From assembly GCA_028583605.1 (NCBI GenBank), contig CM053329.1, forward strand, positions 13,068,501 to 13,132,500: DNA of 64,000 bases, given 5' to 3'. Numbering within the stretch: position 1 is the first letter of the stretch; each line of letters starts with the position of its first letter. The position numbers and the translations under genes were made by a program. Shown here in pieces: positions 12,138 through 55,720 of the stretch. Below the pieces are notes generated by a model, which had not been told where the DNA came from, did not search any database, and saw only the letters and a list, made by a program, of their open reading frames with translations. Source of the DNA: Dastarcus helophoroides (Eukaryota > Arthropoda > Insecta > Coleoptera > Bothrideridae).

Positions 12138-13593
12138 TATTTCCGGTCAATAAGGGTCTACCATGAAGAATTTCAGTTTATTCTTACAATTTCTCTTTTC
12201 GAAATTCTGCAGTTTTTCAAAAAATTCAAAATTGCCTAAAAATTTCAGGTTTTTAGGTTTGTTTTGAGTTTTAATCTATTGTCAAAATTCGACGTGTTTT
12301 TTTAAAATTTTGCCTTTTTTGAGAATTTTCGATAAATTCATGTTTTTCGAAATTTCTCCCTTTTTCCGAATTAGACAAATTTATATTTTTAATCTATTCA
12401 TTTTTCCCATGTTTTTTCGAAATATCTTCCTTTTTCTCAAAATTTGGCTTTTTGGGGAAATTTTGATGTTTTTTTAAAGTTCAACACTTCTCCAAATTTT
12501 TTGAAATTTTCTTTCAAAATTATTTTACCAATTTTCTCAAAATTCGAATTTATCTAAAAATTTGGAGTTTTCTTTAATTCGTCTTGTTCTCAAAATTGCA
12601 AATTTATTTTCGAAATTTAGCTTTCTCTGGAAAATTGCAATTTTTTATCGAAATTTCGGGTTTTTTTAAACTTTTTCCATGAAATTCTTCCTAAAATTAA
12701 ACTTTTTTCTTCTTCACTGAAAATCTTTAACTTTTTTAGAGGTCAACAATTTTTTTTAAGCTTCCAGGTAATTTTTACAATTTCTCTTTTCGAAATGTTA
12801 CTATATTTGAAAGAATTCAAAATTGTTTAAAAATATCAGGTTTTTAATTTGTCCTGGGTTCCAATCTACTGTCGGAATTCTACGTTTTTTTTCTAAAATT
12901 TTACCTTTTCTTGAGAATTTTTGATAAATTTCTTTTTCTCGATTTTTTTGAAATCTGTTCCTTTTTCTCAATTTTTTCGAAGTCTCATTCTCAATTTTTT
13001 CGAAATATTTTTTTCTGAAAATTCGGCTTTTTCTAGAAATTTCAGCTTTTAGTTCGAACTTTGATATTTGCCGTTTCTGTAAATTTAGATTTTTTTCTCA
13101 CAAAAAGTAATTCGCCTTTTTTTCATGAAATCTCAAGGTTTTAGAACATTTACAAATAAAAAAGTAAAAATCATGAGAATAATATTTTTTAGAAATTTCG
13201 ACTCCTTAAGTTGGTCTTTTACTAGAAATTTCAAATTTCATGTGTTTTTTCAAAATGTTAATACAAATCAATCAAAAAGTTCGGAAAAATATCATTTGAA
13301 ATCATAACTTTTTGTCAAAATTTAAAACGTAAAAATTCCTAGAAAAATATTTTTGGAAATTTCAACTTCTGTAGGTCATTTGTTTAATGAGTGTCTGGGT
13401 GTCTGTCCGCTTTATCTTTTATTTACTTATTTTTTTAGGGGAATTTAAAGAGCCGCAATTTTTTTTTAAAAGAACCGCATGCAGATCGCGAGATGCGGTT
13501 TGCCGACCCCTGGTGTAGCCGATTCGTTACCTCTAAACACAAAATCGAACTAACCATACAACGATTTTTATATAATTTATTATCAAATCGCAG

Positions 13594-13716
13594 ATTATGA
13601 CTTTGATTCTTTCAAAGGCGAATTACGTAAAGTTGTGGCTCAAGTTCCCATTCAGAATAGAAAAATTGGGCAAATGTTCGAATTCTATGATGACAACCAC
13701 GACGTCTCATCAACCG
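13594..13716 (+). CDS. Exon 1 traced: acidic/aromatic N-terminal segment
   Basis: The acceptor follows TCAAATCGCAG and the donor is GTATGT. The 123-base exon is open in phase 1 and encodes YDFDSFKGELRK..., with VPIQNRKIGQMFEFYDD and a C-terminal DDNHDVSST. It is less repetitive than later exons. It begins in mid-codon, so at least one upstream exon is missing from view; the 6.65-kb hAT element lies directly before its acceptor. Confidence 0.65.
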
Positions 13717-16700
13717 GTATGTTTAAAAAGGAAAAACGTCCAACTACCAATTAACTGATTTTTATATTTTATGACAAATTACTAGAGGAACAGAGTACGT
13801 TAGATACTTCAGACGAGGATAGCTATGAAGAAAGAAACAAAGAATTAGGCTATGAAGCTCAAGGAAAAGAACTCAAAATAGCTTCGAAAAGCGACGAATT
13901 GCACAACTCTGACGACGTCTACAAAGAAGAAGAAGACGATGCAAAAATTCAAAGACATGCAACCTTAGCAAAGTCCGAAATATCCACTGTAGTAGATGGG
14001 AAAATAATCGAGAAAATCAAAGATGATTTTAATGTGGACAATCAAGGGACACTTTTATCACACAACGTTCCAATGAAATATGAAAAAATGTCTTCAGGTA
14101 AAAATTTTCTATTGGCTAATGTTTTTTTTCCATCACCTTCACCTTGCTACCAGTGGCGGCTGGTCTTAAAGAGGGCAAAAGCGCGCGCTCCTCGTGAAAT
14201 GAGCGATCTATTCTTTGCGTTTTAATATAAAAGACTTGGATTTATCAGATTTTTGAACACAGAATAAATGATATACTAATTAACTAATAATACTTGTGAG
14301 TGACTTATAATAAAGTACTCAAACGTTTTATTCCATTATATTTAATATTATAAAAAAATTTAAATAAGTTGGTGCGCGCAAAGTTATTCACCTAGCGTGA
14401 CTGCGGCACGATGTACGATGCGAATCAATGGCCCAATGGCCTTCACGGGATACCGAGAAATAATTTAGAAAACACCACGTTAAAGCTAGCCCGAGGTACG
14501 CCGCTCCGCGCTTGTGCGCTATTGCCAAATGGTGAATAAGAGTCAGAGTTTGCGAGTGTGTATTTACGGTTTATGATGCTAAATGCGGAGGTGCCGGCTG
14601 ATCTGATTGCGATTGCTAATTGTGCCGCTTACAGACCTAACTGCCAACAGTACCGCTATTCACAGAGATAGCAGTACCCATTCTAGGGTCTAATTATTAA
14701 TTTGTAAATTTGGATTGAAACAATTTTGATGATAAAGTAATGAACACTTTATTTCTTTAAAAAATCGTAGAGCGGGTTTTGTTTAAAAAAATATTTTTCT
14801 TGTGTTTTTATAGAGTTTAATTGGAACATTGTAATAAAACAGATTTTATTTTCAAACGCAGTTTTCATGAAAAAGTGATATAATTTTATTCCTATGAAAG
14901 CAAACAATTTTAATCAAGTAACCCAGAGCCGTAACGACGTGCAACCGTACAGAGTACTTTAAAGGGGCTCAGAAATGTCGATAATGTTTTTTTTTTGTAC
15001 TCGATGAAAATAATTTAGAGATGATAACCCAAAAATATTTTGGAGGTTATAAGATATTAATTAAATTTAATTCGTAAAAATACTATTAAATATCACACCT
15101 TTTGTATCACTTTTGTTTCTCTTAAATTTAATGCCTTGCTATGTCACTGGAGTCACCTAAACTCTTAACTACTAATATTTTTGCATCTGCGCACCCCCTG
15201 TCAAAAAGTCACCAGCCGCCACTGCTAGCTGCTGTCTTTTTAAAAGATCTTAGCCAATTAGGCCAAACAGTTTTATTTTATACATAATTTTTTTCTACTA
15301 TTGTTACTTTTTTTTAATTAAAAATGACTAATGCTATATTCCATAACAATAAGACATAATGTCAAAATTTTTCATAGTGTCCTAGTGATTTAAATGTTTC
15401 GATTAAAGTGATTATTTAGTTGTAGAAACTCAGACAACTCCTTACACTTATTCAACCAGTTCACAAGCTACTGAAGCAGAAGAAGACGATGATGACTTTA
15501 AGGATGAAATGGGAGAAATAGTAAGCGATTGGGAATACGCCTATCAGGATAAACGTTGGCGACCACGTCACCCCAAACTTCACAAATACAAGAACCGCAC
15601 TGAGTCATCAAGTAATAAGACTTATTTGGATGAAATCAACTTGGATTGTCAAATATTAAGACTTCAAAAATTGACATACAAATCTTGTCCCCAAAACGCA
15701 ACACAGGTTGCTCTAACACGTTTCGTTAGCCAAGCTATCATCTACAGAGAGATATCTCTCAGAGTATCTCTCCTAAGATGATAACTTGGCTATCTAAACG
15801 CGTTAGAGTAACCTCTGTTGTGTTTTTTAATTGTTCTTGGTTTCTGGGGGTAAGATTTGTATTTCAATTTTTGAGGATAACCAAGGACCAGTCCGTTCCA
15901 GCAAAAAAAAATATATATACAGGGTTAGGCAAATGTGTGAAAACCCCTGATTTCTTGCTAAACTATAATTTGGACTAAAAAGTACCCCTAATAAAAGTTT
16001 TTGTAGTATTCTCATTCTATTCAGTGACGTTATTTGTTTTTTAACAGCTACCCTATTTTTTGAGATATGACGTCATCGGTAATTTTTTTAAATAAAAGAC
16101 CCTGTTTATTTTTAAGTTTTAAGATACACTTTTTTATTAAATATAATGCTGTAGGATTTGGTGAGCGTGCGATTTATGCTCTTCTAAATATTAAATAAAA
16201 TAATAAAATAAGATCTTTTCCAATGAAGCAACATTGGTTTTGTAAATGGGCATTACTGACGTTACTGGTCTGATCAGAATCCTCAGTGGATGGAACAAAT
16301 GCACACCCAGTACCCCCAAAAATTAAATATGTGGGTGGGGATAATCAAAAGACACATCATTGAACCATTCTTTCTTAAAGAAAATTTAAACTCTTATCGT
16401 TATTTACAACTTTTGCGTGAAAAAATTGTTCAAGCATTAAATCGTTTATTTCCAAATCAGACGAATCCTGAACAAGTCTCAGATGAAATTTGGTACAGCA
16501 TGATGAAGTTCCGCCTCATTGTGGAGTTGATGTGCGTCCAATACTTAAATGAAATAGTCCCACGGAGATGGTAGGTCGAAGAGTATACAGTGAATGGCCA
16601 TCGCGATCGCCAGATTTAAGTCATTTAGACTATTTTGTTTGGCGTCATTTAAAATCCGCTGTTTATAATATCAAACCCCAATCCTTAGAAGAGTTGGAAG

Positions 16701-19700
16701 ATCGAATTAGGATGGATGTTCAATAAATATCACAACATGCTATTCAAAACTCCTTAAGAGCCTTCCTTGATCGATTGGGATATTGTCAGGCTGCTGAAGG
16801 TCTCCAGGTCTCAAAAAATAGGATAGTTGCTACAAATCAAATAACATCATTGAATAGAATGAAAATGCTACAAAGGGTATTTTTTAGTCGAAATGATATT
16901 TTAGCGAGAAATCAGGGGTCTCCACACATTTGCCCAACCTTGTATATTAAGACTTATTTAGCCGAAAATAGCTTCCAACAGTTTTCGATTATATTAAGTG
17001 TAAATTCTTCCCAACTTTAAATTTAAAATTTCTGACTTTAAATATGATAACGAAGGCTTCCACGGCCAGAGTCAGTACAGGATATACTTCTTCCGGGATT
17101 GGACCGTATCAAAGAATTACTAAAAGTGTCCAACGTTTTGCCCACCATCATAGGGGGCTTGTTCGGCAATGGCTGACTGCGAAAATAAACCAGATCTAAG
17201 ACATCGTTGTGCTCGGATATTCGCGTCTTCAATGATCGCCCCGTTTCTCCGATGTACACTAAACTACAAGAACAAGCAACCCTGTACATACCATTAAAAC
17301 AAAAGGATAAAGTTTTATCTTTGGGAGATGAGAGGAGCTGTTGGATCTTCGAAGATGATGAAAAAATAGGTTTAATGGGTTTAATAATTTTGAAATTGGC
17401 TTTTCATTTTTTCATTTTTGCATATTCCCTCATATTCTTCTTTTCATTTATTTTTTCTTTTCTTTGTTCCTGAAGAAACCCCCTACGATGGTGGACGAAA
17501 CGTCAAACACTTTTAGTAGTTCTTTGACACGGTCCAATCCCCGAAGAAGTATATCCTGTACTCTAACTTCAAAATTGCAATTTATTCAAATGAGTTACCA
17601 AATTTTTTACAAAGTTCTCAAGGTTAAATTTAAAACTTTTATTTTGTCCTCGAATATTAACCTGAAGCTAAAAGTGTGAAAGTTTTTATTTTCGAAATGT
17701 TGACATTTTGACTTATTTATTTCATATATAATTTTGAAATTGCAACTTGAAAGTTTTCCTATACATTACTAGACCCAAAATTTTCCCTTTAATCTTCAAT
17801 TTTTCTTTCAGTTTAAACTGGAAATATCCAAATTTTATTTCGAATTTAGAGTTAAAATCATGGCATCGAACCGTTTCGTTTCGGTTTTTGGTTTCCGTTC
17901 AAGGAAAACTCATATCGGTTCCGTTCCGATTTTCATTCCAACAAAAATAGCGGTTTTTTCAGGTTTTCGGTTTAGTTCTGGATGACTTCTTTTTTTATTT
18001 TTCAAAAGATTTTATTTGATTTAAAAATTGATTTTCTAACCTAATTTAGAAAATGTTTTCTCTCTTTTTTTCAATATTACAGCTTAAAATTTCAACAAAA
18101 TATTTCTCGATTTTTCGAGTTTAAAAATTTCACGCTGTAACTCTGAATTCTGGGTTTGTTTTGAGTTCAAACTTCAAAAAAGCTCGGAATTTTATGAAAA
18201 AAATTAGCTGATACCCGTGCTTTCACCAAGGTGAAAACAGAGAAGGGATCCTTTGGTTATATACTTTTTTGAAAGTTTCGACTTTTCTAAAGAATTCAGT
18301 TGTAATTGAAAATTTTTGCTTACTTGGAAAATTTCGACAATAAAAACCTGTTTTTTCACAGAGTCGATCTTTTCTCGTTCGACTTCCAAAATGTCGAAAT
18401 TTTAACTTGATTTTGAAAATTTCGACTTTTTTCAAAATTTTGATTTTTTTAATGCTCCAAATTCTTCAAAATTCTGTCGTTTTTAGGTGGTTTTAATTTT
18501 TTTGGACATTTTACTTTTTTTATAACTTTTGTCCTTGTTAAAGATTTTATTTTTTGAAAATTTTAAATTTTTTTGAATATTTTGAATTGATCTTGAAGTT
18601 TGAACGTTTGACCTTATTTTTGTAATTATTGACCACTTCTGAAATTTCAGACTCGAAATTTCATTCTTTTTTGAAAATCTAACTAGTTTTAAAATCAATT
18701 TTTTAAAACATTTCAATTCTTTTCAAAGGTTTGAATTTTTTCAAAGTTTTAACTTTTTGCAAATATCGACTCTCTCGAGTGTTTGGTTTTTTATTCAACT
18801 TTTTTTCAATTTTTCGCAAAATTCAGACTCTGAAAATGATTACTATTTGAAAAGTCCGCCTTAGATTTTTATTGAATATTCTTAAACATTTTTCGACTTC
18901 GTCTTTATATTTTGCAAACTTTGAAATTCAAATATTCTTTTTTTTTTAGCTTCCACTTTTTTCAAATGTTTACTTTATTAATCGCAAGAATTTTTCAGTT
19001 TGGCCTTTCTTTAGAATTTTAATTTATTTTCCAAATTCTGAATTTTTTGCAAATGTTTACACGTAATTTCAATCTTTTCCCAAAAAGTTTGAATTTTTTC
19101 AAAGTTTTAACTTTTTGAAAATATCTACTCTCAAGTGTTTGTTTTTTTTATCGAACTTTTTTTCAATTTTTCGCAAAATTCTGACTTTCTGAAAATGATT
19201 ACTTTTTGAAAAGTCCGCCTTAGATTTTTATTGAATATTCTTAAACATTTTTCGACTTCGTCTTTATATTTTGCAAACTTTGAAATTCAAATATTCTTTT
19301 TTTTTAGCTTCCACTTTTTCAAATGTTTACTTTATTAATCGCAAGAATTTTTTAGTTTGGCCTTTCTTTAGAATTTTAATTTATTTTCCAAATTCTGAAT
19401 TTTTTGCAAATGTTTACACATAATTTCGATCTTTTCCCAAAAAGTTTGAATTTTTTCAAAGTTTTAACTTTTTGAAAATATCTACTCTCAAGTGTTTGTT
19501 TTTTTTTATTGAACTTTTTTTCAATTTTTCGCAAAATTCTGACTTTCTGAAAATGATTACTTTTTGAAAAGTCTGCCTTAGATTTTTATTGAATATTCTT
19601 AAACATTTTTCGACTTCGTCTTTATATTTTGCAAACTTTGAAATTCAAATATTCTTTTTTTTAGCTTCCACTTTTTTCAAATGTTTACTTTATTAATCGC

Positions 19701-49700: not shown

Positions 49701-52693
49701 GACCAAACTACAGATGCGTAGGTCATCGCTGGTCTTATGATGGATTTGCATAGTAACCCTTTAAGTCCAATAGACAGGTTATTTTTCTACCAATCATCGT
49801 TTGCAGCAGTCCCTTCAGCATTTCGGCTTTGGACACTGCATAATCGATCTGTGCCTGAAATGTAAGTCTTTTATCCAGAATTACACCTAGATACTTTGCC
49901 TGAAGTCCCCAGTCGACGTTTTGCCTATACACATTAACATGTCCATATGATTGGAGTCTTTTTCGGGTAAAGAAGACTGCTTGGGTCTTGTCTGCGTTGA
50001 CTTGGATTTTCCATTGACTGAAGTAATCTAGTAGACAATCTGTTCCCTCCTAAAGTTGTCTGGTGACCAACTCTGGACTGAAAGAGTACGCCACCAAAGC
50101 TGTGTCATCTGCATAAGTTGCCAATAAGGTATGGTCGATTATCAGATTGGTTCTTGACATGTCCGCTGTGAACAGAGAATACAGCAGAGGTGACAAGGCA
50201 GAGCCTTGAGGCATTTCATACTGTAGCCTAAACTGGTTTGGTAGTTCCTGTCCCACCTTTGCTCTGAATAAGCACTGGTCCAGGAACGAAGTTACCATTT
50301 AAATCATTGTTAGAGGTATTCCAAACTGGCGCATCTTGTAAACTAGTCCTTGGTGCCAAACTATGTCAAATGTCTTGGAGATTTTGAAGAAAATAGCTCC
50401 AACTACCTGGTTCCAGTTCATGCCTTGAGTTATTGTTTTAACCACACTCAGCATCTGGTCTGAGGTAGCGAGCATAGGTTGGAACCCAATTTATTTCCTA
50501 GGAATGATGTCGCGATCGCTGATAATATTCTGCAGATGCTTCCTCAAAATCCTTTTCGCTACCTTACCCAAGTTAGATAAGAGGCTGATTGGCCTGTAAT
50601 TTTGGGAAAATTTGTCATCCTTACTTGACTTAAGAATGAAAATAACGTTTGTAGTGTTCCATCTTGTGGAAAAATACCAGTACTTAAACATGGAATTGAC
50701 TATGACTCCAAAGTATTTGACAGCTTGGTCCGGAAGAGACTTCAAAGTTTCGTTTGGAGCTTTGTTTGAAACTGGATCCTTTTTGACGTTTAGCTTGCGC
50801 AGAAAGCTTTGGATTTCTTCCTCGTTAGACGGTTGGATGACGTCGTTTTCTTCTGGCACTTTCTCCTAAAGAACTTGAACTTCTTCTTTCACCTCCTCTA
50901 CGAAATCTAAGTCCACTTAATTTAATTCTAAAATTAAACCTTATATACTAGGAATATTCACTTCGTGCATTCAAACGCGTATGCTTATCTAATCATACAC
51001 GTCACAAGTCACACGTCTAATCATCACAATTCCTTAACTTTTAACCTTAACTATTTTTAACAGAGATGAGTGGTCTAAAGGCCCAGCGCAACTATTTATA
51101 AAGTTGTCCCCAGTCTTATGGATGGCTAAGCTTTCACAAGCATTTAACATAGAATTCTAATTTAGTACCCTTAACAGTTTAATTTGTTGGGCGTTATCGG
51201 TTTGAATGATTGACACGTGAATTGTAACCACTTTATTTCAAAGCAGAACTCGGATCACAACAATTGTAATTCACTAACGCTGTTTAATTAACCAACTTAT
51301 TCATTAACCTCTAACTTACTTGACTGACTCTAAGGGAAAGTCGACCGCCTTACATAAGTCCCGCCTCGGGTTCTAGAAGAATCCAGCAGATAAGGCTTAT
51401 CGTTTGCCGAAATTTCTGGAACGCTTATCTGCCATTTGCGTGGCCGCTTCCACTTATTAAATTTCTTAGAAAATTCCCAACTAAACTTTATAATTACTTT
51501 TTGTTACAATATTATTACCTATCATAGGATCTAATTTAAAAGTACGTTGAGCCACACTTGCCTTCTCAGTTCTTCCGCACCTCAAATGAGCCAAATGCTC
51601 CTTCAGTCGGATTTGAAGAGATCGCCTAGTCTGCCCGACGTACTTTTGAGGACAATCTTTACATGAAATTTGGTAAATACCGGACTTGTCCGTTTGCTTT
51701 ACTTTATCCTTCAAATTACCCAAAAGCGAATTTAATTTGCCGTTAGAACTGTCAACAATCCGGAAGCACTGTTTTCGTAAAATTTCACCTAAAGCATGCG
51801 TAAGCAAGAGTTCAAATGAAAGTAAGGCGAGCTTTTAATAAAGACTTTCCGAGTTGACGAAAACAAAAACTTAAAGTTCGTTTCACTTCCATTTGAACCC
51901 TCGCTTTACTCATGGTTTAGGTGCCATATTTTTAAATTCTAACGCATATAGAGCAAGTTTTTTTATAGAATCACCTGAAGTGGAAGCTACAGTGACAGGT
52001 AAGCGGATTTGAGTTTTTAAGCTATGAAAAACCTTTTTTATCGTTTTCAAGAAGCCATAACACAAGTCACTGAAGATTTAGTAATGTCATCCACAGAAGA
52101 AGAATTGTATGAAGAAGAAGAATTCACGGACGAAGTTCGAAGAGTAACAGACCACGAAGGTAATAATATTTTTATGTATTTCACTTTTACCATTAAGCGA
52201 CTTTTTAAGAGTCTTATTTCACAGAATGCGAAGGTGAAGACTGCGTAAAAGAAACTCGACCAAAAGGCACATTTGTGAAAATTCCTACACAACCTACAAC
52301 GACGATTTGTAAGTCTATGGGGTGAGAAAGCCAGTAACATATTAACTATTTTATTGTTATACTTTTTAGCTAGTTACATCATTTTGAAGAACCTGCGATA
52401 TAAAAATGAGGGTAAGATGTTAGATTTTCTTTTTACTAGCGAAAGGTAAACCTAGAGGCATTGCAAACAGAAGTTGGAAAATCGATAGCTATGAAATATC
52501 GTTTTAAATGCTTGGAAGCAAATTCCAAAGATTCACCCACGGATTATAGAAGTAGGATGGTGCGTGCACTAACGTAGAAAGCGGTGTCGAAAAAGCGTCT
52601 AGAGAGTAGGTAGTACCTTCTCGTGATAGCAGGAGTGATGGATTTCTACTGCCAATGAGGAACGAAGTAAATGAATATGACTATTAAACAGTT

Positions 52694-52753
<60 letters not shown>

Positions 52754-54872
52754 AAAGAAATAGTCGGAGCTACTCCACTTTCTAGACGCTTCTCGGTCAA
52801 AGTTTTATACATGGCCAATATAGGGCGTGCACTATCCTTATTCTATAATCCGCGGTTTCACCAAAGAAAAAGTCCTCATAGCTAAAACTTTGCACTGTTC
52901 CAAGCTTCACTGCACACTAATTTGCTATCTTCGATTGTCTTATGTACCTAAGAATGTGTATGTATATGGGATAACACCACAGGGCTGGGATTCTGTATTT
53001 TGGATACGAAGTGGGTTGCCTAGAGTTTAGGCCAGTACGTAGGTCACCCTTTCCGGCCCCATTGTGCTATCACCGTGATTAAGGTGTCCTTGGTTATTCA
53101 TTCATTAAATGACCATTTGGTATTTTTTTGAAATATTTTTGTTTAAATTTTCAAATCACCACTGTGTCTTGAAATACCAAATTGCCATCTGGATTCTGAA
53201 TTCTGGATTCGTTGTGGGTTGCCTTAAGTTTAGACCAGCACTTAGGCCACCCTTTCCGGGCCCATTGTGCTTAAGGTGTTCTTGGTCATTCATTCAGCCA
53301 CCCAACTTTGTTGAGAAACTGAAGAACTCAACTCAAACTGGTCACACTAGGCCAGGAGTCCCTCAGCATAGATCCTCTGATTGATGCTAATGCCAAGCAG
53401 TGACACATCACGTGCTTGATACTCTTATCTTCTTTTAAACACCCCCTACAACTCGGGTCGTTTATAATTCCCATTCTGGCCACACTACGCCAGGAGTCCC
53501 TCAGCATAGATCCTCTGATTGATGCTAGTGCCAAGCAGTGACGCATCACGTGCTTGATACTCTTATCTTCTTCTAAACACCCCCTACAACTCGGGTCGTT
53601 TATAATTCCCATTCTGTGGAGGTGTCCGTCGACAGTGACCTGTCCGACACACACCAGAGGGCTATCCTCATATCTAAGACTCGTTTCCAAAACAAACTGG
53701 CTCCTTTGGATTCTATTCAGAGAGCACGATTGCTTTGTTTCAGTAATTTTTAGGGGCGGTTTGTAAACCAACAAACTTCGACGACTAGAAGTTGTCAACA
53801 TATAAGTCAGTTTGGGCTCGTGGTTTTTCTTTAGGCCGGAACGGAGCAGCACCGGAATTTTTTTTTTAAATACTTCGAAATGTTATCGAAAATTATATAC
53901 AGACAATAAATTGCCATAAAGCTTAATGCAGTGCAGTTTAATAATGCGATTACTGATGTAAATCTCTATTAAATACATCTTTGACTTGTTTAAGAAAAAT
54001 GGCCAGAAATCTGCAGTAAAGGCTTGATGCAATCCCCTATCTCTTTAACAGAAAGTAAAACGTCCTCGATGAAGAAGGAAGCACTACAGTTAATAAATTT
54101 CAACTACACAGTTAAAATCGCGTTGGACGTTACACCTAGAGGAAGTAAGTATAATTTCCAACTTTATCCACAAACTAGACTTCTTCCAGTTTCCATGTAC
54201 TTATACCAATATAACGCACTGAAAATTTTGGGTGGAGGCTTGATGGAAAACTACAATTTGGATCAAATCATATTCCGAGTACCCTCTGAACATATAATAA
54301 ACGGAATAAGGTACTCTAAGTAGTTCCACTCCAATGACTCTAACTCCTCGACTATAATTGCAGGTATCCAATGGAGATGCAACTGGTATCGTATCAAGAT
54401 GATTTTGCCAATACAGCAGAGGCACTAGCTTCAGGCTCCCTAGAGTCTGTCGCAATTTTAAGCGTCATGTTCCAGGTATTCAATCAAGATATTCTCTGTA
54501 TCTCTTTTTTGCAAAATAGTGTTATTTTCATTCATGTTTTATTGGCTTTTTCTCGCCAGTTTCTCCTTCCACGAAGAAATAGCCAATCAATTGAAACTCG
54601 ACAGGGAAAGGTTCTCAAAATTCATTTTATAGGAGGGAGGCTCAAGCAGCGATTCAATCGTAACGATGGCCAAATACATCAAAAAGATGACTTCGGGTTC
54701 ATCAACTTATAACGGCACCCGAACCACTGAATTTGATATACGAGTATCAGATCTGGTTCCCAATTCTTTGAAGTCTTATTATCGATATGAAGGTTCCATT
54801 ACGGATCCAACTTGCTCCGAGGTGGTACTGTGGAACATTTTCACTGATACTGTCTCTATTGGAACTGAGGAG
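13594..54872 (+). CDS. Acidic multi-cassette protein with C-terminal carbonic-anhydrase-related domain (28 exons traced)
   Basis: Spliced gene inferred from consistent GT-AG sites and reading frame: 25 phase-1/1 exons of 30-312 bases, all multiples of three, followed by three exons encoding most of an alpha-carbonic-anhydrase-like domain. The traced coding length is about 4,124 bases (about 1,375 residues). The extension is rich in Glu, Asp, Lys, Thr and Ser, nearly free of Cys, and built from recurring exon types (A, B, C). The CA part matches the family signature but lacks the zinc ligands, so enzyme activity is not expected. The start codon, any signal peptide and the end of the CA domain lie outside what I can trace. 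Introns hold nearly all the transposons. Long acidic extensions on CA domains occur in some biomineral matrix proteins; such a role here is only analogy. CA-related domains also occur in receptor phosphatases and secreted CA-related proteins. Confidence 0.8.
13786..14097 (+). CDS. Exon 2 traced: long Glu/Asp/Lys-rich segment
   Basis: The longest acidic exon: 312 bases, 104 codons, phase 1 at both ends, acceptor ATTACTAG and donor GTAAAA. It includes TSDEDSYEERNKELGYEAQ, a VYKEEEDDAKIQ block and a more mixed tail with IIEKIKDDFNVDNQG. It is 69 bases from exon 1. It does not fall clearly into types A, B or C and may be the ancestral, unduplicated part. Confidence 0.72.
14151..15224. mobile_element. 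Non-autonomous hAT-type element in an intron
   Basis: The ends are perfect 14-bp inverted repeats, CAGTGGCGGCTGGT at 14,151 and its complement ending at 15,224. Flanks CTTGCTAC and CTAGCTGC are 8-bp target duplications with two mismatches. The 1,074-bp interior has no transposase frame. It lies wholly within the intron between exons 2 and 3 and is independent of the larger hAT element upstream, with different ends. Confidence 0.8.
15426..15611 (+). CDS. Exon 3 traced: acidic block plus basic W-E-Y-A-Y segment
   Basis: 186 bases, phase 1/1, acceptor TTAGTTGTAG, donor GTAATA. It encodes TQTTPYTYSTSSQATEAEED followed by DDDFKDEMGEIVSDWEYAY and a basic stretch with RWRPRHPK. The DWEYAYQDKR portion resembles the W-E-x-D-Y-R core of type C exons, so this may be a diverged A-B-C fusion. 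A Penelope-end pair begins about 50 bases after the donor. Confidence 0.7.
15664..15900. mobile_element. Penelope 3'-end pair, head to head (U2)
   Basis: A minus-strand copy (about 15,664-15,750) abuts a plus-strand copy (about 15,755-15,900) that ends in CCGTTCCA. Both ribozymes are damaged: the plus copy reads CTAAGA and TAAA in place of CTGAAGA and GAAA, and the minus copy reads CTGTAGA. Confidence 0.8.
15920..16942 (+). mobile_element. Tc1/mariner-type element with 44-bp inverted repeats, transposase decayed
   Basis: The ends begin CAGGGTTAGGCAAATGTGTG and, complemented on the right, CAAGGTTGGGCAAATGTGTG, followed by matching CCCCTGATTTCT; TA dinucleotides flank both sides (15,918-15,919 and 16,943-16,944). 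The interior encodes broken transposase: NMWVGIIKRHIIEPFFLKEN with YLQLL (16,290-16,570), then, after a frame change, EWPSRSPDLSHLDYFVWRHL, the SPDLxxLDYFxW motif around the last catalytic residue. The N-terminal DNA-binding part appears deleted, giving only 1,023 bp. Confidence 0.85.
17038..17289 (-). pseudogene. GIY-YIG nuclease end of a second Penelope-like family
   Basis: The minus-strand frame begins YRVACSCSLVYIGETGRSLK with TRISEH, a GIY-YIG core clearly different from the family at 481-1,761. It runs into the element's 3' region, where rearranged hammerhead-like words (GCCCCC...GGTGGGC, AAAACGTT) appear on the minus strand near 17,120-17,170. Only the nuclease start and tail remain. 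Confidence 0.75.
17465..17575 (+). mobile_element. 3' region of the second Penelope-like family, inverted copy
   Basis: It shares with 17,040-17,170 (in inverse orientation) the words CACTTTTAGTA, TTCTTTGA and GGTCCAATCCC, then GAAGAAGTATATCCTGTACT. It holds a CTGAAGA box at 17,470-17,476, a CCCCC...GGTGG hairpin and GAAA at 17,497-17,500: a hammerhead-like layout with imperfect closing pairs. Another fragment lies at about 46,177-46,240. Confidence 0.6.
17580..18720. repeat. AT-rich satellite, irregular part
   Basis: T-rich strand words (TTTTGAAAATTTCGAC, TTTTTCAAAATTTTG) with no clear long period. The CGGTTTT dispersed repeat at 17,862-17,980 interrupts it. Open frames on either strand are low-complexity Lys/Phe/Ile peptides. 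Confidence 0.6.
18722..20170. repeat. Tandem satellite, four units of about 357 bp
   Basis: The phrase TTTGAATTTTTTCAAAG followed by TTTTAACTTTTTG starts units near 18,729, 19,088, 19,445 and 19,802; each contains the marker words GTCCGCCTTAGATTTTTATT and TTAATCGCAAGA. The units are very similar, with small indels in T-runs; the fourth is more diverged. Confidence 0.85.
20400..22200. repeat. Tandem satellite, four units of about 410-450 bp
   Basis: The phrase GAAAATTTCGACCTTTTA recurs near 20,465, 20,912, 21,325 and 21,765, each followed by TCAAAATTTCG and later ACTGCTTCT(TC)G. The unit differs from the 357-bp satellite next to it. The array ends at a short perfect inverted repeat AAAGTTTAGTAGA/TCTACTAAACTTT around 22,192-22,221. 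Confidence 0.75.
22222..23440. other. AT-rich sequence with satellite words on the opposite strand
   Basis: No gene is seen. From about 22,560 the satellite-like words switch to the complementary strand (AAAATTT, TCGAAATTTTAAG, AAAAAAGTC), as if the array changes orientation after the small inverted repeat at 22.2 kb. Confidence 0.45.
23441..23555 (+). repeat. Truncated copy of the LTR-like repeat (3' part)
   Basis: It shares GGCGCTTATC-GCCGTATAATT, CGCGGCCACTTCCCATTAT, TTTTCTAGAGAATTCCTTAC and TTATAGCTACAATTTGCTACA with the full copies at 38.6, 45.6 and 51.2 kb. It lies immediately before the acceptor of the first A exon. Confidence 0.75.
23576..24131 (+). CDS. Cassette 1: exons A (23,576-23,752), B (23,815-23,913), C (23,997-24,131)
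   Basis: Three phase-1/1 exons separated by short introns of 62 and 83 bases. A (59 codons) carries QLVFDEYTLQDEKTGRIPTL and a Lys/Thr tail; its donor GTCGGT is weaker than the others. B (33 codons) is the acidic DYEYYADDEESDDDK followed by IFTKPTKPG. C (45 codons) has KVKEHVQSWDKDYRVAAK, then a tail DSDYEDDEESDDEPG. The layout and motif order repeat in cassettes 2, 3 and 4. The intron after B starts GTATCAA, as in cassette 3. Confidence 0.8.
24303..26205 (+). pseudogene. LINE family 1 copy, broken, with an internal duplication
   Basis: RT fragments in order: YNKGVFPNIWKS (24,690-24,730), VSLDISKAFDRVWQRSLLAK (24,948 on), AGVPQGSVLSS with LLHINDLL, then ADDSN, and FSWDDHVHAIAKFAS to LEYCSYVW (25,371-25,630). 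Stops and frameshifts break the frame, and a stretch is deleted between the post-catalytic DRP and the next block (near 25,320). The C-terminal stretch with ESLTDSL-x-TLEHRRMVGD occurs twice (about 25,660-25,775 and 25,850-25,965), an imperfect duplication of about 190 bp. The 3' end is TTTGCGAGTGGATTAAAC and an A-run. It lies in the intron between cassettes 1 and 2. Confidence 0.85.
26216..26362. mobile_element. Penelope 3'-end pair (U3), plus copy internally deleted
   Basis: The minus copy (26,216-26,283) keeps CTGAAGA and hairpin II but has AAAA for GAAA. The facing plus copy goes from CTGAAGATGATAG directly to GGGACAAAATTTG, losing the rest of the ribozyme. Confidence 0.75.
26642..27132 (+). 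CDS. Cassette 2: exons A (26,642-26,794), B (26,858-26,935), C (26,992-27,132)
   Basis: Same architecture as cassette 1, with introns of 63 and 56 bases. A (51 codons) is VTTQKAVEEPNKNLAVNKNE and a Thr-rich tail ending in TKTTTGDEG. B (26 codons) is IEDDDEYEEEETEESN followed by PLFNKTNKSG. C (47 codons) is KKVRDKVKDHMQNWEKDYRV, AAEVIDELFDY, then NQSDYEFEDQTG; NQS is a possible N-glycosylation site. All exons are phase 1/1. The acceptor of C is ATGAAG, a little unusual but the only one that keeps the frame and motif. Confidence 0.8.
27225..27590 (-). pseudogene. Mariner transposase C-terminal part
   Basis: On the minus strand FFLDHDKASCHNSFLSGQIL corresponds to the mariner HHDNAxxH catalytic region, and further along TFQKYFQSWNRGWDMCI matches the usual C-terminal W-x-x-R-W-x-x-C-I. 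Frames are broken. A piece of what may be the same gene (FFDIEGIMESGFARREATVN) lies on the minus strand at about 30,755-30,960, so the pogo element and LINE debris between them may have split one mariner copy. Confidence 0.7.
27590..27752 (+). pseudogene. LINE C-terminal fragment split by the pogo element
   Basis: The plus strand reads INDRIAENKIKWKEQVERIN, RLPAKAKFYRC and GRLRKKWV, the typical last part of RTE-type LINE ORF2. The sequence continues on the far side of the pogo insertion at 30,693 with a basic tail. Confidence 0.55.
27755..30690 (-). mobile_element. Complete pogo-type DNA transposon
   Basis: The ends are perfect 19-bp inverted repeats beginning GGGCGGGGCTAGTTGATCA (27,755 and, complemented, 30,690), flanked by TA on both sides (27,753-27,754 and 30,691-30,692), the target duplication of the Tc1/mariner/pogo superfamily. 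Its 2,936 bp hold one transposase gene on the minus strand. GC-richer ends and the nearly intact gene point to a fairly recent insertion. Confidence 0.9.
28254..30157 (-). pseudogene. Pogo transposase with C-terminal PHD-like zinc finger, two stops and frameshifts
   Basis: From the N-terminus: a helix-turn-helix with NGAAKQFNINRMTMKRYISK (from 30,157), a second DNA-binding region with FSDEQEISLKEYL and GKDWLTKFMARNPDL, then the DDE catalytic core with first Asp in NVDETG (about 29,600), second in LLVLDNHSSH and third in LQPLDVSVFGPFK, then GFKKSGVYPFN. A Ser/Ala/Thr-rich spacer of degenerate 14-codon repeats (28,700-28,900) precedes C-x2-C residues reading CLLCNEEF...WIQCQICKQWSHIKC...FVCINC (28,260-28,420), a PHD-like finger. 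Breaks: TGA where Trp is expected at about 29,615 and again near 29,370, a one-base shift in an A-run near 29,555, and a frame change before the finger at 28,515. Confidence 0.85.
30755..30960 (-). pseudogene. Mariner transposase central fragment
   Basis: The minus strand has THFFDIEGIMESGFARREAT and VNSEY, matching the mariner FFD-x-x-G-x-x-x-x-x-F-x-x-x-G-x-T-V-N region after the first catalytic aspartate. An (AAG)n run at 30,727-30,760 adjoins it. See the partner piece at 27,225-27,590. Confidence 0.55.
30985..33100 (+). pseudogene. LINE family 1 copy with internal tandem expansions
   Basis: The usual pieces are present: FPNIW-like start, ISKKGKRNLTNNYRPMSSLP (31,077 on), a second partly repeated copy of that block, the VPQGS region (31,700), RLRKQQIQMMNRDLETVLNW (31,850), and the ILEVNASINFSWGDHICAIA region repeated three times (31,996-32,590, about 195 bp each). 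A 16-bp minisatellite occupies 31,573-31,687. The 3' end GCGAGTGGATTGAAC is at about 33,085. Frames are broken throughout. Confidence 0.85.
31573..31687. repeat. 16-bp minisatellite inside the LINE
   Basis: About seven copies of ATGGCATCTCATCATG. Other copies of the LINE have this word only once, so it expanded locally. Confidence 0.9.
33105..33485. other. Unassigned, possibly transposase debris
   Basis: No intact gene. Short frames on both strands contain no motif I can name with confidence. The stretch lies between a LINE 3' end and the Penelope-derived tandem array. Confidence 0.3.
33486..35280. repeat. Tandem array of ~433-bp units derived from Penelope ends
   Basis: The marker TCTCTCTGAAG followed by the ribozyme remnant recurs at 33,868-33,878, 34,301-34,311, 34,736-34,746 and 35,151-35,161 (offsets 433, 435 and 415). 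Each unit holds a head-to-head pair of Penelope 3' ends and a shared 200-bp spacer with AATGCATTGTT, GCGACAG and GACTGATAAGTCACAACTTG. In the first three units the plus ribozyme has lost hairpin II (CTGAAG joined to CTGTCGAAA) and the minus one reads CTCAAGA. The fourth plus copy is nearly intact. Confidence 0.88.
35152..35192 (+). ncRNA. Hammerhead-type ribozyme, near-intact, in the last array unit
   Basis: CTCT, CTGAAGA (35,156-35,162), extra T, hairpin GATAG-CTTGG-CTATC, GAAA (35,179-35,182), then AGCGTT and AGAG. The C-to-A change after GAAA removes the second stem III pair, so activity may be reduced. Confidence 0.6.
35505..36037 (+). CDS. Cassette 3: exons A (35,505-35,678), B (35,736-35,822), C (35,906-36,037)
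   Basis: Introns of 57 and 83 bases, all phase 1/1. A (58 codons) is STSAKMEKPVVSGSYTTPHK, later IQILANDTFKNKESI and a Thr/Ala tail. B (29 codons) is VENDYEDDEEDEEAENVF followed by NKSTKPSADTG. C (44 codons) is HQKVRDKVKSHIQSWEENYR, IVAEAMDEYLYSDEKTDEGF. An alternative donor for C 13 bases downstream (AAGTCAG|GTACAAG) also keeps phase 1 only if read through, and aligns with the donor position in cassette 2. The B and C sequences are closest to those of cassette 2. Confidence 0.82.
36264..38385 (+). CDS. Cassette 4: exons A (36,264-36,527), B (36,581-36,667), C (38,245-38,385)
   Basis: A is enlarged to 88 codons by a Glu/Gly run from GAA/GGA triplets (36,335-36,415); it keeps NVLIIEEYTLSDEE, which matches VIIEEYTFPDE of the A exon at 39,081. 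B (29 codons) is MEDYYEDKKKPEEDENIFNE. C (47 codons) is REKMREKVIEQIEHWEEDYR, VAVELIDEYFGSGNGTDEEY; NGT is a possible N-glycosylation site. The A-B intron is 53 bases, but the B-C intron is 1,577 bases because of a Penelope pair and a fold-back insertion. Despite that the flanking sites GTATTAA and TTATTGTAG are intact. Confidence 0.82.
37030..38165. mobile_element. Composite fold-back element with nested Penelope pair
   Basis: Outer inverted ends: GCGCC(C/A)TCGGCGTGACATG-type words at about 37,030-37,105 and, complemented, 38,085-38,165. Two further inverted pairs lie inside: 37,461-37,605 with 37,714-37,859, and 37,607-37,706 with 37,984-38,076, each around 85% similar by eye. A Penelope pair (37,111-37,270) sits just inside the left end. 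A related end occurs alone at 39,344-39,405. No ORF is recognisable. Confidence 0.7.
37111..37270. mobile_element. Penelope 3'-end pair (U5), ribozyme halves lost
   Basis: The minus part (37,111-37,193) runs from TTGAAATACAAATTTTGTCC to GATAGCCAAG, and the plus part (37,194-37,270) from TTTTTTAATC to CCGTTCCA. The central ribozyme of both halves is deleted. Confidence 0.8.
38593..38970. repeat. LTR-like dispersed repeat, complete copy
   Basis: It starts TGTTGCGCGTTATCG and ends TTTGTTACA, a TG...CA layout, with ATAC on both sides (38,589-38,592 and 38,971-38,974) as a 4-bp target duplication. It contains a run of AACTAACTAACTG words. Related copies lie at 45,569-45,912 and 51,185-51,508, with a fragment at 23.4 kb. 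A solo LTR is the simplest reading, but no internal retroviral-type genes are in the window. Confidence 0.65.
39081..39266 (+). CDS. Exon 16 traced: type A without partners
   Basis: 62 codons, phase 1/1, acceptor TATTTTTTAG and donor GTCAGT. It encodes VTSKIKSNDSNDKVVIIEEY, TFPDEIMKKISPLVSNFEKE and a Thr/Ser tail ending in TTRVTG. The following intron of 5.8 kb contains two mariners and LINEs; no B or C exon of this cassette is found before the next acidic exon at 45,085, so they may have been lost. Confidence 0.8.
39622..41055 (+). pseudogene. Mariner element transposase, interrupted by a LINE fragment
   Basis: The N-terminal part (39,622-39,894) has LLYEFTLGTKDAETYREICV, WFKKFASGNEYLEDEPRSRR and PSTIN, the mariner helix-turn-helix and linker. 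The catalytic part resumes at about 40,545 with YYELLPSGQTITAKIYLAQL and SVVLHHDNTRPHMAKITQE, then LPHPPYSPDLQVTT. Between them (about 40,090-40,540) lies a LINE 3' fragment on the minus strand. A stop ends the first frame at 39,894 and the third catalytic region changes frame. Terminal repeats were not found with certainty. Confidence 0.85.
40090..40540 (-). pseudogene. LINE family 2 C-terminal cysteine-rich fragment
   Basis: The minus strand encodes MGIINDPSCRGCLEEDKSVE then HVMCHCPAFASIRGS, a C-x2-C-x8-H-x4-C zinc-knuckle-like motif typical of the end of RNase-H-type LINE ORF2, and ends FHKVGWVNE. The 3' untranslated words CCGGGCCCATTGTGCTATC follow. The family recurs at 53.0-53.9 kb. Confidence 0.75.
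41385..43145 (+). pseudogene. LINE family 1 copy, longest 5' extent
   Basis: It starts with a pre-RT region, MEMSINWEELGDFFASFLWQ and AESITETILIGMECSISHSQ (41,385-41,690), then LPVISKVMEKVINIKILKYL and FRQQHSTGNLMAYVTHICNS with VALDIAKAFDKD (41,821-42,048). Later blocks are out of frame, and the 3' end GCGAGAGGATTAAACTTT lies near 43,130. It is in the same intron as the two mariners. Confidence 0.85.
43259..44529 (-). mobile_element. Mariner element, full length, transposase broken
   Basis: Inverted ends GGTCATTCAACACGTCCGTA (from 43,259) and, complemented on the right, GTCCATTCAAAAGTCCATAG, with TA on both sides (43,257-43,258 and 44,530-44,531). The 1,271-bp length is usual for mariner. 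On the minus strand: RQLVEKWITEFKRGRTSTND and DAERSGRP (43,941-44,330); YVTMDETWLHYYTPESKRQS (43,698-43,928), holding the first catalytic Asp; then KKVFFHEDNALCHKSM and SSDLAPRDFFLFSDLKRMF in further frames. One change replaces the usual HHDN with HEDN. Confidence 0.9.
44532..45080. other. Intron sequence with a possible pogo-type terminus
   Basis: Near 45,020-45,050 the complement reads CAGTAAACTCTCGCTAAAGT, which resembles the CAGT...CTCGCTAA ends of pogo/Tigger elements, and several GTTAAAGTTG words lie upstream (44,800-44,850). The opposite end was not located, so an element cannot be delimited. No gene is seen. Confidence 0.4.
45085..45276 (+). CDS. Exon 17 traced: A/B-like fusion
   Basis: 64 codons, phase 1/1, acceptor GAATCTTTCAG, donor GTAAAT. 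It encodes LFSFNSGNQNIKSSGEKLEA, a middle TLSAEDNKSTSNEEKTEKEM and an acidic end EDAYPEEEYEDATTS. The Ser/Thr/Lys start resembles type A and the acidic end type B, without the intron that separates them elsewhere. Confidence 0.75.
45569..45912. repeat. LTR-like dispersed repeat, second copy
   Basis: It shares TGTTGAGTGTTATCGGTTCG, the ACTAACTGACT run, GGTTTCTAGAACGGATCTCC and the TTTCTTACA end with the copy at 38.6 kb. I see no matching target duplication. Confidence 0.65.
45913..46290. other. Intron; fragment of second Penelope family tail
   Basis: No gene is seen. Bases about 46,177-46,240 match, in the complement, the GTTCTTTGACAAGGTCCAAT and GAAGAAGTATAT words of the element near 17.5 kb. 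Confidence 0.5.
46291..46425 (+). CDS. Exon 18 traced: type C variant
   Basis: 45 codons, phase 1/1, acceptor CTATTTAAG, donor GTTGGT. It encodes VKPKEQAPEKIQTVQNWKED then YLVTVEDEYPDGDYDEYEEP. It keeps W-K-E-D-Y-x-V in place of W-E-x-D-Y-R-V and an acidic, Tyr-rich tail, but the basic lead sequence is diverged. Confidence 0.75.
46580..46768 (+). CDS. Exon 19 traced: A/B-like with a DSEDEDSEDED run
   Basis: 63 codons, phase 1/1, acceptor TTTGATTGTAG, donor GTTAGT. It encodes ETSKDTITPKSSINISTVLK, then LTTTSPANTDKDDEDEDSED and EDSEDEDDDEKVKK. The GAAGATGAAGATTCT repeat shows local expansion. The alternating D/S/E pattern would be a target for casein-kinase-type phosphorylation if the protein is secreted or nuclear; that is inference. 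Confidence 0.78.
46920..47960 (+). pseudogene. LINE family 1 copy, 5'-truncated
   Basis: It begins at a LADRSLQVVVDG-like stretch, followed by VPQGSVMSPTLFLVHINDF and SYPDDCSLVSSFLSD (46,959-47,192), where YADD has become YPDD, then MRSNLSILGVNASTNFSWDD to IRLIDVDNLTDSLETLEHRL (47,302-47,673). The 3' end TTTGCGAGTGGATTCAAC lies near 47,950. Confidence 0.85.
48024..48120 (-). mobile_element. Penelope 3' end, truncated (U6)
   Basis: A minus copy from AAATTGAAATACAACTCCTG to GATAGCTAAGCTATCATCTTA. It stops within the CTGAAGA box, so the ribozyme is incomplete. Confidence 0.75.
48271..48384 (+). CDS. Exon 20 traced: acidic B/C-like
   Basis: 38 codons, phase 1/1, acceptor TCTCTTTCAG, donor GTATTT. 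It encodes ERSNTEDEEATESDESDTDE, EEDRRVATESGDEYSDEG. RRVATESGDEY keeps an echo of the D-Y-R-V-A-x-E core of type C, but the Trp is gone. Confidence 0.75.
48385..49008. other. Intron, nothing recognised
   Basis: AT-rich sequence with no repeat family or motif that I recognise from elsewhere in the window. Confidence 0.4.
49009..49152 (+). CDS. Exon 21 traced: type C
   Basis: 48 codons, phase 1/1, acceptor TTTGATTGTAG, donor GTATGA. It encodes SKTETEANIHDKVDESILNW then EEQYRVSDDDFDEYMENF and DGTDTEPPG. The W-E-E-Q-Y-R-V motif is clear. A Penelope end starts 35 bases after the donor. Confidence 0.8.
49187..49324 (-). mobile_element. Penelope 3' end (U7), full module, damaged ribozyme
   Basis: On the minus strand it runs from CTGAATAGGATAGCTTGGC through GAAACGCGTTAGAG and the GGTTGTG-like tail to GTCCGTTCCACC. 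The CTGAAGA box reads CTGAATA, and hairpin II has one G-C-to-mismatch change. Confidence 0.75.
49331..50917 (-). pseudogene. Jockey-like LINE, ORF2 reverse transcriptase, broken
   Basis: On the minus strand: SNEEEIQSFLRKLNVKKDPV with NYRPISLLSNLGKVAKRILR (50,491-50,859), then MPQGSALSPLLYSLFTADMS, ATYADDTALVAYS (50,050-50,298; intact YADD), then AKYLGVILDKRLTFQAQIDY (49,735-49,932). These are typical Jockey RT blocks and differ from LINE family 1. Stops separate the pieces. The GC-richer 3' tail reaches about 49,331. Confidence 0.85.
50918..51843 (-). pseudogene. Penelope-like GIY-YIG fragment, split by the LTR-like repeat
   Basis: On the minus strand SGIYQISCKDCPQKYVGQTR and LQIRLKEHLAHLR (51,481-51,807) is close to the nuclease at 1,440-1,560. 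The C-terminal coding and 3' region continue on the other side of the insertion at 51,185-51,508, down to about 50,918, and match 1,640-1,865. No ribozyme follows; the Jockey-like LINE begins there. Confidence 0.85.
51185..51508. repeat. LTR-like dispersed repeat, third copy
   Basis: It starts TGTTGGGCGTTATCGG and ends TTTGTTACA and interrupts the Penelope fragment, so it is the younger insertion. Flanks AATT and ATAT do not form a clean duplication. Confidence 0.68.
51844..51945 (+). mobile_element. Penelope fragment in inverse orientation to its neighbour
   Basis: It matches 1,260-1,345 (TTTCCGAG-TGA-GAAAACAAAAAC, CACTTCCATTTGAACCCTCGC) on the plus strand and abuts the minus-strand fragment that begins with the same CATTTGAAC words. 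This is a second head-to-head junction within the same element family. Confidence 0.75.
51969..52411 (+). CDS. Exons 22-25 traced: short acidic linkers before the CA domain
   Basis: Four phase-1/1 exons: 51,969-51,998 (ESPEVEATVT-like, 10 codons), 52,052-52,159 (36 codons, AITQVTEDLVMSSTEEELYE then EEEFTDEVRRVTDHEG), 52,225-52,308 (28 codons, CEGEDCVKETRPKGTFVKIP and a Thr end) and 52,370-52,411 (14 codons, SYIILKNLRYKNEG). Donors GTAAGC, GTAATA, GTAAGT and GTAAGA are good. The two cysteines in CEGEDC are the only ones noticed in the extension. The last two exons may correspond to the poorly conserved N-terminus of the CA domain. Confidence 0.65.
52536..52853. mobile_element. Small inverted-repeat element with a (GA)n microsatellite
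   Basis: The ends ACGGATTATAGAAGTAGGAT and, complemented on the right, CGCGGATTATAGAATAAGGA are imperfect inverted repeats, flanked by TTCACC on both sides (about 52,529 and 52,854). A GA run occupies about 52,696-52,752. There is no ORF. It looks like a MITE. Confidence 0.6.
52990..53870 (-). pseudogene. LINE family 2 fragments, with an in-frame 138-bp duplication
   Basis: The minus frame 53,328-53,852 encodes LETSLRYEDSPLVCVGQVTV then DGHLHRMGIINDPSCRGCLE and HVMRHCLALASIRGS, followed by a second copy MGIINDPSCRGCLKEDKSIK with HVMCHC. The repeat unit of 138 bp (46 codons) lies at about 53,339-53,476 and 53,477-53,617. The 3' untranslated part CACCCTTTCCGGGCCCATTG occurs twice (53,025-53,100 and 53,230-53,290), so the 3' end is duplicated too. 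Confidence 0.8.
54052..54310 (+). CDS. CA-like exon 1: N-terminal half of the carbonic-anhydrase-related domain
   Basis: 259 bases, enters in phase 1 and leaves in phase 2. It encodes ESKTSSMKKEALQLINFNYT, VKIALDVTP, then NALKILGGGLMENYNLDQII and FRVPSEHIINGIR. G-G-G/P-L-x-x-x-Y-x-L-x-Q followed by SEH is the CA core; active enzymes have QFHFHWG where this has QIIFRVP, so zinc ligands His94 and His96 (human CA2 numbering) are replaced by Ile and Arg. Glu106 of the SEH triplet is kept. The N-terminal SPI(D/N)I region is not seen. Confidence 0.82.
54364..54475 (+). CDS. CA-like exon 2
   Basis: 112 bases; the arginine codon is completed across the intron to read G-I-R-Y-P-M-E-M-Q-L-V-S. SEH-x4-G-I-R-YPMEMQLV fits the alpha-CA signature except that the third zinc ligand (His119) is Gln. 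It continues YQDDFANTAEALASGSLESV then AILSVMFQ, matching the VLGVFFEV strand. It leaves in phase 0 with donor GTATTC. The preceding intron is 53 bases. Confidence 0.85.
54633..54872 (+). CDS. CA-like exon 3
   Basis: 80 codons, phase 0 at both ends, acceptor CATTTTATAG and donor GTAAGA. It encodes EGGSSSDSIVTMAKYIKKMT, then FDIRVSDLVPNSLKSYYRYE and GSITDPTCSEVVLWNIFTDT. YYRYEGS-x-T-x-P-x-C-S-E-x-V-x-W is a hallmark of the alpha-CA fold; Thr199 is kept and Thr200 is Asp. The domain's last part, with the usual NxRPxQ, should be in a later exon that I do not find before the satellite. An alternative acceptor at 54,560 would break the frame and is not preferred. Confidence 0.87.
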
Positions 54873-55420
54873 GTAAGATGATAAGTGGCGTGTTCTCCAC
54901 TGACGCTAGGGAAGCACAGCTTCCCTTGAAAATGATTTGTTTGCAAGATACAATGTTTCTGAAGTTTGAATGCCCAAATTCAACCTATTTTTGGTTTGTT
55001 CTCGAAATTTCGAACCTTGTCTCAGAGTTTTCGTGCGCATTCTCTCCCTATTAGACCTAAGGAAGTAAGATGGACAGCGGCGTCTTCACCATGCAAAATA
55101 ACAAAGCACTGATTTTGGTAAACGGACTGGTCCTTGATTATCTTCAAAATTGAGACATATCTCTCTGAAGATGATAGCTTGGCTATCGAAACGGGTTAAA
55201 GAACCTTTGTTGTGTTTTTTAATCTTTCTAGGTTTCGGGGGACAAGATTTTTATTTCAAGCATAGATTCCCCCAAAAAATTATTTTTTTTACAAGATAGA
55301 ATCTTTGTAAAGTTTGAATTCTAAAATTCAACTTATTTTTTGTTTGTTTCTCGTATTTTCGAAACTTTTCTCAATCTTTTTCGTGCACGTTCAAAATTTT
55401 CTTCTATTTTTTCTTCAGTT
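54873..55420. other. Intron or flank with a Penelope end (U8, 55,113-55,258)
   Basis: It begins with the strong donor GTAAGATG of CA-like exon 3. A very similar 20-base phrase around AGGAAGTAAGATG recurs at 55,058-55,075, suggesting a local duplication of the splice-site region. The Penelope module here is chimeric: a minus 3' tip, then a plus ribozyme with intact CTGAAGA (55,165-55,171) and GAAA (55,188-55,191) but poor stem I pairing (TAAAG). Confidence 0.6.
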
Positions 55421-55720
55421 TAATCCACTCGCAAAGGGTAACCCCATCATGCTTTTGCGAGTAGGATGCGGAAACAAGGATAGATGGCGTTGAACCACCT
55501 TCTGAAACAAGGATAGATTGTAATTTTGGGGAAAATTCCTTCCGGCAATAAATTCCCTAATTTGGAAGTTCTATAAAAAAAAGAGCCTCCGTACACAGAA
55601 GTCCTTACTGTGTCAAACTGGACCGCACAGGAATTCGCTGTCTCCGACTGTCTACTACGCCTCAAGAATCTTGACCTTGGGGGGATTAATTCTATTAGTT
55701 CCTGCGAACGTTGACCTAAG
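55421..55720 (-). pseudogene. LINE family 1, 3' end only
   Basis: On the minus strand: RRSRQSETANSCAVQFDTVR, SVYGGSFFYRTSKLGNLLPE, FRRWFNAIYPCFRILL, and the GCGAGTGGATTAAAC end at about 55,421. The copy is strongly 5'-truncated. Confidence 0.8.

Follow-up and report, generated by a model that had tools for sequence, protein, structure and literature searches.

The receptor tyrosine phosphatases gamma and zeta carry a carbonic anhydrase (CA)-like domain in N-terminal position, and inactive CA-like domains elsewhere are thought to bind partners. CA-related proteins (CARPs) are defined by the zinc histidines that they lack (PMC2873310). In CA IX a negatively charged and mainly disordered region, the PG domain, lies directly N-terminal to the CA domain, where it raises activity and, it has been suggested, buffers protons (PMC7432807). 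In mollusc shell CAs the CA domain shares a single protein with an extended stretch of low complexity, and nacrein without its low-complexity region inhibits the precipitation of calcium carbonate more weakly (PMC4023409).

The locus described here, found in the beetle Dastarcus helophoroides within a window of 64,000 nucleotides (the whole stretch of DNA that was analysed), is real, coherent and unusual, with known parallels for each of its two halves. On balance, we favour reading it as a large and most likely single gene, in which a mostly acidic arm built of exon cassettes precedes an alpha-CA domain with none of the three zinc ligands, and whose product is probably a secreted, non-enzymatic scaffold.

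The likeness to CA IX lies in an acidic, disordered region placed directly before an alpha-CA domain, the two being joined here by the gene model alone. The differences are several: the PG domain reaches to about residue 136, as against an arm of 1,152 residues; CA IX works as a zinc enzyme and possesses a transmembrane helix, whereas the modelled domain has no active zinc site; and exon cassettes, which are present in the model, are not described in the part of PMC7432807 drawn upon here. With CARPs VIII, X and XI the locus shares an alpha-CA fold devoid of zinc histidines. A CARP lacks at least one of these residues and the present domain, as read from its sequence, qualifies as one, but it differs in having all three replaced and in the very long acidic arm that stands before it. 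RPTP-gamma resembles the model in reading EMQ where the third zinc ligand would stand and in the DDF stretch that follows, while the phosphatase part of the gamma and zeta receptors has no counterpart in the window model. Finally, nacrein and the 1,028-residue shell CA of Cepaea nemoralis (Cnem25891) are described as joining, in a like manner, a long low-complexity region to a CA domain, but in the accounts given of shell CAs this region consists of Gly/Asn repeats interrupting the domain or of a Gln-rich C-terminal region. In the model, by contrast, duplicated exons encode an acidic arm on the N-terminal side, and no low-complexity repeat of the nacrein type lies inside its CA domain. The first-pass annotation of this DNA had held the architecture to be unlike known ones; set against the acidic arm of CA IX and the low-complexity regions of shell CAs, a parallel that the annotation had itself named, it is less so. 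Where it does differ is in having arisen from cassettes, in being so long and in having lost every one of the three ligands.

The gene model

Exons were collected by scanning for acidic segments that contain no stop and are flanked by AG and GT, and then by reading through the sequence. The resulting model (Table 1) has 30 exons at 13,594-54,872 of the plus strand, of which exons 1-24 form the arm and exons 25-30 the CA end. Joined, they give 4,145 nt, or 1,382 codons with zero stops, and AG precedes and GT follows each one of the 30, as the annotation had stated of the frame and its GT-AG sites, with the qualification that the exons were picked for being open. Phase 1 is found in 27 of the 29 introns (1-2 through 27-28), followed by one of phase 2 and one of phase 0, such that phases are compatible at all 29 junctions. 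The row of acidic exons seen at first stands, with its count corrected from 25 exons and about 1,170 residues to 24 arm exons and 1,152 residues.

Table 1. Exons of the model and neighbouring transposon-related reading frames; positions are those of the window.
Feature	Position	Strand	Character and basis
Exons 1-3	13594-13716, 13786-14097, 15420-15611	+	acidic; frame and splice sites
Exon 3	15420-15611	+	C-like DWEYAYQ stretch, by eye
Cassette 1, exons 4-6	A 23576-23752, B 23815-23913, C 23997-24131	+	frame, exon-pair similarity, nucleotide homology
Cassette 2, exons 7-9	A 26642-26794, B 26858-26935, C 26992-27132	+	frame, similarity, homology
Cassette 3, exons 10-12	A 35505-35678, B 35736-35822, C 35906-36037	+	frame, similarity, homology
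Cassette 4, exons 13-15	A 36264-36527, B 36581-36667, C 38245-38385	+	frame, similarity, homology
Partial fifth set, exons 16-18	A 39081-39266, exon 17 45106-45276, C-like exon 18 46291-46425	+	
Exons 19-24	46580-46768, 48271-48384, 49009-49152, 51969-51998, 52052-52159, 52225-52308	+	frame and splice sites; exon 21 (49009-49152) C-like
Exons 25-26	52370-52411, 52471-52551	+	transition into CA domain; Pfam match starts inside exon 26
Exons 27-30	54052-54144, 54190-54310, 54364-54475, 54633-54872	+	CA domain: QIIFRVPSEH, YPMEMQLVS and YYRYEGSITDPTCSEVVLWNIF
Retroelement ORF, 463 residues	370-1761	+	reverse transcriptase and GIY-YIG domains
DDE_1 transposase ORF and nearby psq helix-turn-helix ORF	28516-30178	-	psq match just under cut-off

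Several boundaries admit of alternatives. Exon 26 has three weak acceptors, with first base at 52456, 52471 or 52489, and exon 13 could also start 3 bases later; since the former are all in the same frame and the latter shifts the start by a whole codon, the frame is unchanged by either. A start of exon 26 at 52,440 was rejected, as it would leave an intron of only 28 bases and run into a stop. An in-frame TAG lies at 54,630-54,632, just before exon 30, and is skipped, its last two letters being the AG of that exon's phase-0 acceptor; reading exon 30 from further upstream hits this TAG and was rejected, while the phase-0 acceptor gives a normal domain spacing.

The scan was controlled by a strict version, with a higher threshold and without the bonus for phase 1-1 that the looser one had granted. 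It gave 18 non-overlapping acidic candidates on the plus strand, 14 of them in phase 1-1, and none on the minus strand, and 50 dinucleotide-preserving shuffles at the same setting gave a mean of 0.04 candidates and at most 1. The best score was 45.8, and that of exon 2 was 44.2, against 15.6 for the best shuffle. With the looser setting there were 37 candidates on the plus strand and 13 on the minus strand. The shuffles and the opposite strand together reject chance open frames as the origin of the acidic exons. Of the strict candidates, 14 of 18 are identical to exons of the model; three more (15,409-15,706, 26,961-27,132 and 35,859-36,037) each overlap an exon, 3, 9 and 12 in turn, but are bounded differently, and the last (39,685-39,868) lies outside the model. 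Seven of the 24 arm exons (1, 4, 7, 10, 16, 22 and 24) fall under the strict threshold and were placed by phase, by position and, for the A exons only, by similarity; exon 10, missed by the scan, came from reading through the sequence.

That the exons belong to a single transcript is suggested by the compatible phases at the 29 junctions together with the short introns (53, 65, 61 and 59 bases) that join exons 22-26, and so tie exons 22-24 to exons 25-26. There might instead be two neighbouring genes on the same strand, namely an acidic repeat protein ending near 52,308 and a CA-related gene starting from 52,370 or 54,052, in keeping with the ambiguous acceptor of exon 26, the 1,500 bases of intron 26-27 and the in-frame ATG that exons 26 and 27 contain, one in each. 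Against this, exon 24 ends without an in-frame stop, no junction breaks the phase, the short introns leave scant space for a terminator and a promoter, and scanning 49,153-54,051 revealed no ATG exon that combines a hydrophobic stretch with a phase-1 donor and with which a secreted CA gene could begin. Two genes are therefore unlikely, and the single-gene reading is the best one.

The ends of the gene and the surrounding DNA

The annotation had proposed looking for a first exon with a signal peptide upstream and for the CA C-terminus downstream, and neither was found within the window. Positions 1-13,593 were scanned for a single ATG exon, shorter than 400 bases, that encodes a hydrophobic stretch and ends at a phase-1 donor; this returned no credible signal-peptide exon: one candidate appeared at the strict setting and four at the loose one, as compared with a mean of 2.0 and a maximum of 6 in loosely scanned shuffles. 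The best of them, 5,096-5,168, which was equalled in 2 of 40 shuffles, was rejected, since its antisense, judged by eye, repeats part of a reverse transcriptase that recurs near 41,867. The 9.1 kb left downstream (54,873-64,000) yielded no convincing C-terminal exon of the CA domain (best tblastn E 0.80), and the last 40 positions of the CA profile are absent from the window model. The first exon and the C-terminal exon of the CA domain may both lie outside the window.

The window is AT-rich and full of transposon remnants. Among ten of its open reading frames, four match Pfam at 0.01, these being the retroelement, which we take to be Penelope-like, the transposase and psq frames of what is presumably a pogo/Tigger-like element, and a fourth whose zf-RVT match is under the cut-off. 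The intron between exons 3 and 4 contains large AT-rich tandem arrays at 18725-20175 and 21005-22189, with units of 358 and 445 bases; other arrays are seen at 33501-35249 (433 bases), 57555-58673 (471 bases) and 60616-61719 (309 bases). An Rfam search gave no matches.

The carbonic anhydrase domain

Exons 24-30, when translated, match PF00194 at E 6.9e-33 (114.8 bits, cut-off 27) over profile positions 14-214 of 254, a significant match that places the domain in the family and bears out the CA-related assignment made at first. From exon 26 through exon 30 the match is continuous, with the arm N-terminal to it. In the PDB 237 distinct chain sequences are matched at E up to 0.001 (best 2.5e-14), CA9 and RPTP-gamma sharing first place and the CA of 4x5s following close behind. 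Exons 25-26 presumably represent a degenerate form of the usual C..N.KQSPIDI region of CAs, and the phase-0 introns after VMFQ and GTEE coincide, we believe, with intron sites of vertebrate CA genes.

When the domain is aligned with 4x5s, QIIFRVPSEH stands in place of QFHFHAPSEH and EMQLVS in place of EMHLVH. In other words, the three columns that hold zinc-binding histidines in both 4x5s and P0001, a 282-residue CA, here hold I, R and Q. The three histidines of a catalytic alpha-CA are thus missing, and from these substitutions the domain is predicted to be without zinc and inactive.

The PSEH loop (54190-54310) is short, VPSEH as in 4x5s and P0001; in most animal CAs it is longer. The short loop may come from a short-loop ancestor or from a deletion.

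The loss of the ligands bears on another explanation, that of a nacrein-like biomineral or matrix protein in which the acidic arm would control calcium carbonate and the CA part would be a remnant. It has a precedent in the shell CAs with long low-complexity regions, and in what has been reported of the effect of the nacrein deletion on CaCO3 (PMC4023409), but given a CA domain without zinc ligands and a window that shows no pointer to a mineralising tissue it is rather improbable.

The cassettes of the arm

Half of the 24 arm exons form four A-B-C sets (exons 4-6, 7-9, 10-12 and 13-15). All 276 pairs of arm exons were compared, with 200 shuffles per pair, and scored as z. The C exons (6, 9, 12 and 15) reach z 14.0-18.6 in all six of their pairs, and the C-like exons 18 and 21 give z 4.2-10.3 against them, the upper value belonging to exon 21; B pairs reach up to 7.8 and A pairs up to 7.7 (exons 4 and 16). 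Exons of different classes reach z 4.5 through common composition, and low values therefore carry little weight; the B pair 8-14 and all pairs of the A exon 7, whose z against other A exons is at most 2.5, are below this level. Exon 7 is called A from its position and because its 3' end is homologous, in nucleotide sequence, to that of the A exon of cassette 3. The latter exon (exon 10), when held out of the A profile, matches it at E 0.044. Judged from these comparisons, the cassette signal is clearest for C and weakest for A.

At the nucleotide level, blastn aligns 26,767-26,955 with 35,651-35,830, spanning the A-B intron into B, and 23,839-24,116 with 35,748-36,031, spanning the B-C intron. 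Homology that runs through these introns indicates that genomic units, and not single exons, were copied, and together with the z-scores of the C pairs it upholds the duplicated cassettes of the first-pass annotation. Introns within the sets measure 53-83 bases, with one exception of 1,577, and those separating the four sets 226, 2,510 and 8,372 bases. Between exons 16 and 18 no B or C profile match with E < 15 was found on the plus strand. The A exon of cassette 4 (36264-36527) has a purine-rich Glu/Gly insertion of 27 residues that is missing from the aligned A exons 4 and 16, possibly a length-variable site.

Differences between copies were counted for 3 of the 5 A exons (leaving out exons 7 and 10), all 4 B exons and 6 C or C-like exons. 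In all 24 distinct pairs pS exceeds pN, with pooled pN/pS of 0.61-0.72. By first, second and third codon position the differences are 0.39, 0.27 and 0.43 overall, and 0.43, 0.18 and 0.41 in B exons. Since the third position barely exceeds the first overall, and in B exons falls below it, constraint at the protein level is mild. In this regard the locus could be thought a decaying pseudogene that makes no protein, its CA end having lost ligands, N-terminal region and C-terminus, and the mild constraint, the degenerate N-terminal region of the CA domain and the want of a C-terminal or credible first exon within the window would suit it, but this is distinctly improbable in view of a frame without stop or frameshift and of the splice dinucleotides around every exon (the exons, again, having been chosen open), and of cassette pN/pS below 1, which speaks for the time since duplication and not for the present.

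Composition and predicted structure of the arm

Exons 1-24 encode 1,152 residues with 27.1% D+E, 12.6% K+R and 18.0% S+T, a net charge of -167 and a calculated pI of 4.3. A charge-hydropathy comparison classes the arm as disordered and the CA part as folded. Of the 24 exons, 21 carry a negative net charge, the A exons 4, 10 and 16 having +3, +1 and +1; with three of the five A exons slightly positive, the word 'acidic' suits B and C better. There are 15 N-glycosylation sequons, not clearly above shuffles (mean 9.1, maximum 19).

A database search of both parts had been recommended at the outset. It succeeded for the CA part, as set out above, and returned for the arm no Pfam match above the cut-off: exons 1-9 gave none at E 1, and exons 10-23 gave two, both below the cut-off (best 0.0071).

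The six C and C-like modules have an invariant K, W and Y in common. AlphaFold2 was run on single-exon modules, that of exon 9 being the query and the remaining five its alignment; it predicts a single helix of 34 residues (residues 2-35) followed by an acidic tail of low confidence; mean pLDDT is 78.1 (65.5-78.1 over five models) and pTM 0.42, and pLDDT in blocks across the first 30 residues is 90, 93 and 87. The hydrophobic moment is above shuffles (about 0.02) in two of the six modules, and not clearly so in the other four.

Relatives

Searches for homologues of the whole architecture gave none among 1,120 candidates at 0.001, one among 264 and one among 902 at 0.01, the sole match in both positive searches being P0001. 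This absence is weak evidence of novelty, since insect proteins may be scarce in the collection searched. In searches of open-licence literature directed to insects, the titles and beginnings of abstracts among the papers listed name no protein of such architecture; in the portion of PMC10591384 that was available CARP 10 is named once, as the neighbour of a gene of a venom family.

Implications

From the anatomy of the gene we infer its function; secretion of the protein, a binding role and the skipping of exons are likewise inferred. The CA fold would form a head for binding. Lacking zinc, it is predicted not to hydrate CO2, but its surface could still hold a partner. Along the arm, A modules would be less charged linkers rich in Ser, Thr and Lys, B modules acidic patches, and C modules predicted helices with acidic tails, and the whole may be a long polyanion, binding calcium or basic partners and keeping the head at a distance from its anchor. 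Moreover, because cassette exons begin and end in phase 1, the frame would survive the gain, loss or skipping of copies, and the length of the arm could be tuned in this way.

As a tentative suggestion, for which we would claim rather less than an even chance, the locus may represent a new class of arthropod extracellular scaffold, in which a zinc-free pseudo-CA head sits on a polyanionic arm that resembles an accordion, its length changing in evolution, and perhaps by splicing, through symmetric cassettes that bear helices. Should relatives occur in annotated insect genomes, this would be ordinary family biology. If expressed as modelled, it would show a CA fold that has become purely a binding head, carried on a giant disordered arm, and would offer a clear example of an arm lengthened by the tandem copying of phase-1 exon cassettes; what acidic extensions do, the PG domain of CA IX among them, could then be tested apart from catalysis.
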